The notes under the pieces are model-generated. The model searched no databases, had not been told where the DNA came from, and saw only the letters and a list, made by a program, of their open reading frames with translations. This document shows, one piece after another, positions 1 through 24,778 of a stretch of 64,000 nucleotides of DNA (its first letter is position 1; every line of letters begins with the position of its first letter). Made by a program: the position numbers and the translations under genes. Source of the stretch: Owenia fusiformis (taxonomy: Eukaryota; Annelida; Polychaeta; Sabellida; Oweniidae); contig CAIIXF020000001.1 in NCBI GenBank assembly GCA_903813345.2, positions 31,908,556-31,972,555 of the forward strand. Direction: 5' to 3'.

Positions 1-2360
1 AGATGTTGTATTGGACTCCACACATGTTGAGTTATTGTCACAAAGGTTGAAATCACAGGTTACATTGTCTGCATTTTCACAATACTGTCCACTGAATCCA
101 TCTGGGCATTCACAAATGTAGCCATCAGATGTATTGGTCTCTACACATGTTGAGTTATTTTCACAAATGTTGAAATCACAGGTTTGGTTGTCTGCATTTT
201 CACAATATTGTCCACTAAATCCATCTGCACATTCACAAATGTAGCCATCAGATGTTGTATTGGATTCCACACATGTTGAGTTATTTTCACACAGGTTGAA
301 ATCACAGGTTTGATTGTCTGCATTTTCACAATACTGTCCACTAAATCCATCTAAACATTCACAAATGTAGCCATCAGATGTTGTATTGGACTCCACACAT
401 GTTGAGTTATTGTCACAAAGGTTGAAATCACAGGTTTGGTTGTCTGCATTTTCACAATACTGTCCACTGAATCCATCTAAACATTCACAAATGTAGCCAT
501 CAGATGTTGTATTGGACTCCACACATGTTGAGTTATTGTCACAAAGGTTGAAATCACATGTTTGGTTGTCTGCATTTTCACAATATTGTCCACTAAATCC
601 ATCTGGGCATTCACAAATGTAGCCATCAGATGTTGTATTGGACTCCACACATGTTGAGTTATTTTCACAAATGTTGAAATCACAGGTTTGGTTGTCTGCA
701 TTTTCACAATACTGTCCACTAAATCCATCTGAGCATTCACAAATGTAGCCATCAGATGTCTTGGTCTCTACACATGTTGAGTTATTTTCACAAAGGTTGA
801 AATCACAGGTTACATTGTCTGCATTTTCACAATACTGTCCACTGAATCCATCTGGGCATTCACAAATGTAGCCATCAGATGTTGTATTGGATTCCACACA
901 TGTTGAGTTATTTTCACAAAGGTTGAAATCACAGGTTACATTGTCTGCATTTTCACAATACTGTCCACTGAATCCATCTGGGCATTCACAAATGTAGCCA
1001 TCAGATGTTGTATTGGATTCCACACATGTTGAGTTATTTTCACATAGGTTGAAATCACAGGTTACATTGTCTGCATTTTCACAATAATGTCCACTAAATC
1101 CATCTAGGCATTCACAAATGTAGCCATCAGATGTTGTATTGGATTCCACACATGTTGAGTTATTTTCACATAGGTTGAAATCACAGGTTACATTGTCTGC
1201 ATTTTCACAATACTGCCCACTGAATCCATCTTGGCATTCACAAATGTAGCCATCAGATGTTGTATTGGATTCCACACATGTTGAGTTATTTTCACAGAGG
1301 TTGAAATCACAGGTTACATTGTCTGCATTTTCACAATACTGTCCACTGAATCCATCTGGGCATTCACAAATGTAGCCATCAGATGTTGTATTGGATTCCA
1401 CACATGTTGAGTTATTTTCACAAAGGTTGAAATCACATGTTTGGTTGTCTGCATTTTCACAATATTGTCCACTGAATCCATCTGGGCATTCACAAATGTA
1501 GCCATCAGATGTTGTATTGGATTCCACACATGTTGAGTTATTTTCACAAAAGTTGAAATCACAGGTTTGGTTGTCTGCATTTTCACAATACTGTCCACTA
1601 AATCCATCTGGGCATTCACAAATGTAGTCATCAGATGTTGTATTGGACTCCACACATGTTGAGTTATTTTCACAAAGGTTGAAATCACAGGTTACATTGT
1701 CTGCATTTTCACAATACTGTCCACTGAATCCATCTGGGCATTCACAAATGTAGCCATCAGATGTATTGGTCTCTACACATGTTGAGTTATTTTCACAAAT
1801 GTTGAAATCACAGGTTTGGTTGTCTGCATTTTCACAATACTGTCCACTGAATCCATCTGGGCATTCACAAATGTAGCCATCAGATGTTGTATTGGACTCC
1901 ACACATGTTGAGTTATTTTCACAAAGGTTGAAATCACAGGTTACATTGTCTGCATTTTCACAATACTGTCCACTGAATCCATCTGGGCATTCACAAATGT
2001 AGCCATCTGATGTATTGGTTTCTACACATGTTGAGTTATTGTCACAAATGTTGAAATCACAGGTTTGGTTGTCTGCATTTTCACAATACTGTCCACTGAA
2101 TCCATCTGGGCATTCACAAATGTAGCCATCAGATGTTGTATTGGACTCCACACATGTTGAGTTATTTTCACAAATGTTGAAATCACAGGTTTGGTTGTCT
2201 GCATTTTCACAATACTGTCCACTGAATCCATCTAAACATTCACAAATATAGCCATCATACGTTGTATTGGATTCCACACATGTTGAGTTATTATCACACA
2301 AGTTGAAATCACAGGTTTGGTTGTCTGCATTTTCACAATACTGTCCACTAAATCCATCTG
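1..2360 (-). repeat. Tandem 126-bp coding repeat (EGF array)
   Basis: About 19 head-to-tail copies of a 126-bp unit (some 123 bp), differing at a few positions. Each contains the plus-strand string cacatgttgagttatt or a near variant. The uniform DNA implies recent unequal exchange or gene conversion. Confidence 0.93.

Positions 2361-24778: not shown

Follow-up and report, generated by a model that had tools for sequence, protein, structure and literature searches.

A locus with 19 DSL domains, EGF arrays, and a predicted eight-stranded barrel domain in the annelid Owenia fusiformis

Introduction

The DSL domain is regarded as the receptor-binding hallmark of Notch ligands, and it is used to annotate them. 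The window, i.e., the whole stretch of 64,000 nucleotides of Owenia fusiformis DNA that was analyzed, corresponds to C1:31908556–31972555 of the 498-Mb genome and carries the 5′ end of a gene on the minus strand. An initial annotation of the window had proposed a Notch-ligand-like protein with at least four DSL domains. Here, we examined the exons of the window together with 140 kb of the left flank, the first 80 kb of which are free of N. Negative coordinates are window coordinates to the left of base 1.

Results

Exons and domains in the window

All exons of the gene lie on the minus strand and, unless another source is named, they are known from the gene model. The initial annotation had arrived at 19 exons and 2,680 residues; here, the window model comprises 20 exons with 2,609 codons, two of the 20 (within 12507–12118) being of low confidence. 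The first coding exon (24731–24778), which was read directly, encodes a putative leader with a hydrophobic N terminus, as judged by eye, and ends at a phase 0 donor, GTGAGC. The model start in this exon had a score bonus; when the leader exon is given none, the start moves to 23033. The N-terminal region is then made up of exon 2 (22501–22610), which is in the MNNL position and is unmatched by Pfam MNNL, exon 3 (19238–19361), which carries a motif that recalls MNNL, and exon 4 (18806–18960), which takes a shorter form in some runs.

The first DSL domain, of a type with eight cysteines, is encoded by exon 5 (18433–18656) and scores 38.1 bits against Pfam DSL on frame 18431–18712. In cassette 1, it is followed by a divergent copy of a β-barrel domain (15721–16065; E = 1.6e-7 with an HMM seeded with 14 further copies) and by a CCC-type EGF exon (15107–15190). 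Cassette 2 has EGF repeats and DSL 2 in one exon (14113–14772; Pfam EGF, and 37.7 bits for DSL on frame 14093–14806), a possible degenerate barrel that is split over two exons (12507–12458 and 12253–12118) and was missed by the barrel HMM, and a CCC-type EGF exon (11893–11985). EGF repeats and DSL 3 share an exon with an uncertain 5′ end (11166–11822; 34.1 bits on frame 11143–11862), which precedes the barrel of cassette 3 (10703–11044; 134 bits with the HMM, of which this copy is itself a seed), its CCC-type EGF exon (10501–10572), and an exon with the end of the CCC EGF and one further EGF (10114–10250). The exon at 7207–8764 combines an EGF array (126-bp DNA unit, ~9.8 copies) with DSL 4, and its frame, 7187–8797, gives 30.6 bits for Pfam DSL and 11 EGF stretches. 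Next come the barrel of cassette 4 (6086–6432; 140 bits, again for a seed copy), its CCC-type EGF exon (5816–5897), and a further EGF exon (2725–2861). The barrels of cassettes 3 and 4 matched no Pfam family, and Pfam EGF was found in three window frames. Finally, positions 1–2466 are occupied by an EGF array with a 126-bp unit (~19 copies in the window, 93% matches), the open exon of which reaches 585 bases to the left of the window, where it ends in DSL 5 (C1:31908028–31908159).

The Pfam cut-off for DSL is 24.2 bits. DSLs 1 to 4 all exceed it, including those in exons 8, 11, and 15, where a score below threshold would, by the initial annotation, have refuted its proposal.

Elsewhere in the window, the region 40537–41574 on the minus strand includes a frame (41224–41574) with the C-terminal piece of a protein kinase (Pkinase, 27.6 bits, below the cut-off of 31.7), and two frames of this region may be MNK-like. 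A stretch beginning DYDVAGRYTISARSERDVKLYLPADEN is nearly identical in frames at several places, including window 56149–56553 and −105569 to −106489, and is probably an interspersed repeat.

The cassette repeat beyond the window

The protein had been described as open at the left edge, and the flank bears this out, since its sequence carries the cassette repeat on to about −70.7 kb. The claim of at least four DSL domains also held, with four above the cut-off in the window, yet the whole locus has 19 and not four. In a genome-wide Pfam DSL search, 19 of the 63 hits fell in C1:31.84–31.93 Mb, on one strand, and every one of these 19 was above the cut-off. All 14 copies that were run through hmmscan (four from the window and 10 from the flank) passed the Pfam cut-off as well, and the other five rest on the genome-wide search. 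An intron apparently interrupts DSL 11 ahead of its third cysteine, and this would account for the stop at this domain.

In the joined model, the whole locus contains 19 DSL domains, 19 CCC-type EGF exons, 16 recognizable domains of ~115 residues, and ~135 EGF-like units. Up to the last EGF, the model has 81 exons and 9,795 residues; some small exons of this chain are without domain support and may be wrong. The order within a cassette is EGF units, eight-cysteine DSL, barrel domain of ~115 residues, and CCC-type EGF. A CCC-type EGF exon follows the DSL in all 19 cassettes and, as judged by eye, the last cysteine of this EGF sits on the next exon in 18 of them, cassette 17 having the whole EGF on a single exon. 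Inside cassette 11, there is a vWA domain (107 bits).

Between cassettes 7 and 8 (−12939 to −13660; L007), a Thr/Asp/Val-rich, mucin-like repeat (TTADVTTVADI...) stands before an EGF.

The DSL domains

Eight invariant cysteines are common to the 18 DSL domains that were aligned, the split DSL 11 being left out. Of the extra pair, one cysteine occupies the place of F206 in Jagged1 and the other follows the last DSL cysteine at a distance of ten residues; the two would be expected to form a disulfide with each other. An AlphaFold model derived from the 18 aligned domains (pLDDT 84, pTM 0.58) had DSLs of Jagged, Delta, and Serrate as its first 26 matches in the PDB.

In a review (PMC3415683), the Notch-binding face of Jagged1 is given as F199, R201, R203, and F207, to which a figure adds D205. 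An aromatic residue equivalent to F207 is found in none of the 19 DSL domains, which have Glu (5), Thr (5), Ser (3), Asn (2), Gly (2), Asp (1), or Arg (1) at this position, and the neighboring F206 position is Cys in all 19. R201 is kept in one domain and R203 in four, D205 is kept in 15, and F199 is kept in five, or in 14 when Tyr counts. Taken as a set, the Notch-contact face of a canonical ligand is not conserved in the 19 domains. In the same genome, a DSL that we label Jagged-like reads RPRNDRFGHY and one that we label Delta-like reads KPRDDKNGHY, both being from presumed ligands. Because the Delta-like gene is also without that phenylalanine, loss of F207 alone does not decide ligand status.

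The N-terminal region

The region between the leader and the first DSL had been called MNNL-like. Pfam MNNL gave no match on the joined N-terminal exons, and none of the eight hits in a six-frame search of the genome for MNNL was at this locus; strong MNNL exons are present in two other genes of the genome (116 and 113 bits). When the region was compared with the PDB without its DSL, nothing relevant was retrieved. With the DSL attached, alignments reached into the region, starting at query residue 68 for DLL1 and at residue 19 for Serrate. An hhalign comparison with two MNNL exons of the same genome was not significant, though the motif IG..PFTF..NP..LPFD in exon 3 pairs with the motif of these exons. 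The description as MNNL-like is thus without profile support, and what stands of it is the position and the short motif (IG..PFTF..NP..LPFD.W), both of which recall MNNL. Tentatively, we take the region to be a decayed MNNL.

The barrel domain

The β-rich domains that had been noted between the DSLs are predicted to be eight-stranded barrels. They were recognized (E ≤ 1e-3) in 16 of 19 cassettes as a domain of ~115 residues that separates the DSL from the CCC exon. The barrel HMM was seeded with 14 of the 16 copies and then recovered those of cassettes 1 and 13; in cassettes 2, 14, and 15, it found no barrel. The 16 aligned copies share invariant G4, W6, C12, G35, and C104, and 14 of the 16 barrel exons are of class 1-1. 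Copies 6 and 7 compare at dN 0.057 and dS 0.308. With the barrel of cassette 8 as query, the genome gave 11 hits, none of them outside this locus; this query missed divergent copies at its own locus, so distant copies may exist elsewhere.

The AlphaFold model of the barrel has eight strands (pLDDT 86, pTM 0.81). A Foldseek search against the PDB gave no match at E ≤ 0.001, the best being nitrobindin at 1.3e-3. In VIA-align, Z was 14.7 for a designed barrel, 14.3 for part of a quinohaemoprotein, 13.4 for the Lumbricus erythrocruorin linker, and 11.2 for xenavidin. The sequence profile of the domain had no significant match to the PDB, to Pfam, or to two linker exons of the same genome, and when the 16 members were compared with Pfam, only two unrelated families were listed (best E = 0.032). 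The prediction points to similarity with lipocalin/avidin-type folds, and homology is not claimed. Two more specific identities were considered and set aside: a relative of the annelid haemoglobin linker, for which the fold is similar and sequence support is lacking, and a modified MNNL, which found no support in the comparison.

At C6:27.033–27.049 Mb, three exons match the C-terminal domain of the annelid erythrocruorin linker (28–38 bits, cut-off 27), one of them with an internal stop. Beside one exon of this type, there is a frame that by eye is LDLa-like. These exons are in keeping with an annelid source; searches for COX1 and for molluscan haemocyanin gave no hit, the control for the latter being silent as well.

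EGF units and glycosylation

A regular expression found 135 EGF-like units in the 9,795-residue core. The same residues contain 507 N-x-S/T sequons compared with 161 ± 11 in 500 shuffles, i.e., a threefold enrichment, and the density of 5.2 per 100 residues compares with 0.87 in a relative with 16 DSLs (L029, described below). A sequon lies between Cys2 and Cys3 in 104 of the 135 units, CENNSTC being the commonest form (43). The O-fucose consensus fits 108 of the 135.

Gene number

The gene finder used dynamic programming with phase enforced, and the codon table and bonuses of its later runs were derived from these same domains. It returned a single gene without domain bonuses at a start/stop penalty of 60, and also with bonuses at penalties of 60 and 40 and at five settings from 10 to 30. 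Six genes were returned with strict splice thresholds, low start/stop penalties, and no bonus. Another strict run, which lost 12 of the 19 CCC exons, permitted one start only and is therefore no test of gene number. The initial annotation had called its exons phase-consistent. In a 115-exon model that includes doubtful downstream exons, none of the 114 junctions is out of phase, but this is no independent evidence because the gene finder enforces phase. In the model, each DSL is on a different exon, and all 19 DSL exons end at a phase-1 donor. A gap of ~8 kb within cassette 14 contains only doubtful small exons.

The region downstream of the last EGF

After the last EGF, the minus strand continues, between −71.1 and −99 kb, with a vWA exon (112.6 bits), a PAN-like exon that is below threshold (20.7 bits, cut-off 21.4), and a run of short frames that reaches about −99 kb and shows a recurring "AI..W....G" ending (L001, L010, and L009). 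The idea that these short exons form one family was dropped: an iterated HMM scored them high, but leave-one-out scores were weak (best E = 8e-5; E = 4.5 for the frame beside the EGFs). The frames from −71.1 to −99 kb may belong to this gene or to another one. At about −120 kb, there are frames that by eye are WD40-like and possibly SPAG16-like.

The initial annotation had suggested looking in the left flank for the C terminus and a transmembrane segment. The C terminus was not closed, and no membrane segment was found: in a model of 11,282 residues, one barrel segment contained the only 19-residue window over a hydropathy threshold that also missed the leader and is thus of low sensitivity.

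Other multi-DSL loci in the genome

L029 (C2:27553300–27560700) is a single open frame of 2,193 residues with 16 DSL domains of the eight-cysteine kind, as identified by a regular expression and by eye. At C1:52.30 and C1:17.31 Mb (L017, L018, and L019), the genome has two and three DSL hits, respectively, with a weak MNNL exon upstream of each set (30 and 24.6 bits, cut-off 22.5), assuming one gene per place, and the loop cysteine is present in these DSLs where readable. These places may represent stages intermediate between a Delta-type ligand and the giant gene.

Discussion

We infer from the model that the locus is a single gene of ~95 kb to the last EGF, possibly longer, with one transcript. 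If it is one gene, at least two DSL domains would be in one protein. As to what this protein is, the answer that we favor, with a confidence only slightly above even, is a giant secreted structural or adhesive glycoprotein that descended from a Notch ligand and is not a canonical Notch activator; secretion, a matrix role, and the absence of Notch binding are what we infer, not what was observed. The gene would start like a Notch ligand, with a leader, a region in the MNNL position, and a DSL, after which a cassette is repeated ~18 more times. Duplication of exon cassettes in phase may have built it, 14 of the 16 barrel exons being class 1-1. The product would be an extended, disulfide-rich, and heavily N-glycosylated rod with a structural or adhesive role in extracellular matrix, cuticle, tube, mucus, or egg coat. 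In such a rod, the DSL could act as a stiff repeat module, the EGF arrays as spacers, and the barrels and the vWA as binding or assembly modules; should the gene extend past the last EGF, it would include a second vWA at that end.

A single gene is itself one of two ways to read the locus. A row of separate genes, comprising one or more cassettes apiece, could have been merged by eye and by the model, and the clean 1-1 exon boundaries would permit separate genes made of duplicated cassettes. One parameter setting did yield six genes, and the ~8-kb gap in cassette 14 has only doubtful small exons. Most runs, including the five penalty settings, returned one gene, however, and the better arguments for it are the phase-1 donors of all 19 DSL exons and the EGFs that straddle cassette borders, split in 18 of 19 cassettes; we regard tandem genes as unlikely. 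Recent duplication of cassettes as an assembly artifact was rejected, since, apart from copy 7 (89%), the other aligned barrel copies (14 of 15) share only 14–45% identity with the first, so most copies are old. The 126-bp EGF arrays, with 89–93% matches between units, could still be mis-sized. A pseudogene is countered by the open frames and by a dN/dS of ~0.18, the latter for one pair, barrel copies 6 and 7. If the single gene ran on through exons located 71 to 116 kb to the left of the window, it might encode a membrane-anchored adhesion protein: the vWA exon, the PAN-like exon, and the short frames with the recurring ending do continue on the same strand before the WD40-like frames. This we consider very unlikely, as no hydropathy window in the model passed the threshold except in a barrel segment, and the mutual similarity of the downstream frames is so weak that they possibly belong to another gene.

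The remaining alternative concerns function. A soluble multivalent Notch ligand or decoy would bind Notch through the leader region, the first DSL, and O-fucosylatable EGFs, and its many DSLs would cluster or titrate receptors. The domains are true DSLs in family and fold, a region is present in the MNNL position, the D205 equivalent is kept in 15 of 19 domains and an aromatic F199 equivalent in 14, the O-fucose consensus fits most EGF-like units (108 of 135), and the Delta-like DSL of the same genome lacks F207 too. Against this stand the F207 equivalent, which is non-aromatic throughout the 19 domains, the near loss of R201 (kept in one) and R203 (kept in four), an MNNL that is unrecognizable, and the two other genes that own strong MNNL exons. 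Overall, we judge a ligand or decoy role improbable. The initial annotation had left the choice between a multivalent Notch ligand, a decoy, and an adhesive or matrix protein with a recycled ligand head. The last of these fits best, and the multivalent ligand is disfavored by the same contact positions and the missing MNNL.

A more far-reaching reading, to which we give somewhat less than an even chance, would cut the link to Notch altogether. The protein would then stand for a new class of giant matrix glycoproteins that are secreted and whose DSL, unconnected to Notch and with an extra disulfide of its own, serves as a structural repeat beside a barrel domain not described before. If true, Notch-ligand heads would have been turned into building material. 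Nineteen DSLs without the key contact residue, together with a second gene with 16 DSLs, suggest a structural life of the DSL outside Notch signalling, and they warn that DSL proteins should not automatically be named ligands. Which features of the DSL serve Notch and which serve folding becomes a testable question.

The architecture had initially been called unknown, which was too strong, since genes with tandem DSLs are in print (PMC2770060 and PMC8166818). In the open-licence PMC literature, the relevant reports on multi-DSL proteins among the matches listed were those on cnidarians, bivalves, and "DSL-like" proteins of Platynereis. Among the matches listed there, we found no combination with barrels, vWA, or as many as 19 DSLs, and no further relevant report of DSLs in shell, byssus, mucus, or egg coat. 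In the portions consulted, PMC4640085 names the DSL domain in a cited title only, and PMC6040629, PMC12693620, and PMC10970066 mention no multi-DSL protein. PMC5356439 sets aside proteins with a further domain as "DSL-like," three of them from the annelid Platynereis.

Compared with Delta and Jagged (Serrate), the locus has in common a putative leader, a region in the MNNL position, a DSL by Pfam and by fold, and EGF repeats. It differs in having 19 DSLs in the model, if this is one gene, instead of one, and in its unrecognizable MNNL. Its DSLs have eight cysteines, where PMC2770060 gives six as typical, with Cys at F206 and no aromatic residue at F207. Barrels and a vWA are added, and no membrane segment was found in the model. 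The predicted eight-stranded fold of the barrel is shared with avidins and the annelid erythrocruorin linker barrel (Z of 11.2 for xenavidin and 13.4 for the Lumbricus linker), and nitrobindin and nitrophorins, with a barrel fold as well, were present in the Foldseek list. Identity to known eight-stranded barrels is low (5–16%), with no significant profile match.

Among reported tandem-DSL genes, those of Nematostella include genes of 1–11 DSL repeats and one with an MNLL and three DSLs, misassembly being left open (Gazave et al. 2009; PMC2770060). Tandem DSLs are thus shared with the giant gene, in one case after an MNLL; the 1–11-repeat kind is composed of DSL only, and the portion consulted mentions no barrel or vWA. 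Bivalves have DSL tandem-repeat genes that include a branch without EGF domains (PMC8166818), so that tandem DSL expansion within Lophotrochozoa is common to both, while that branch differs in its lack of EGF. A further comparison is with L029 in the same genome. Its frame shows, by eye, no barrel between DSL and CCC EGF, and it is a single open frame with few sequons, but the cassette of eight-cysteine DSL, short linker, CCC-type EGF, and EGF is common to both. Together with the other multi-DSL loci of the genome, this suggests that a multi-DSL family has expanded and that the protein with barrels is a more elaborate member of it.
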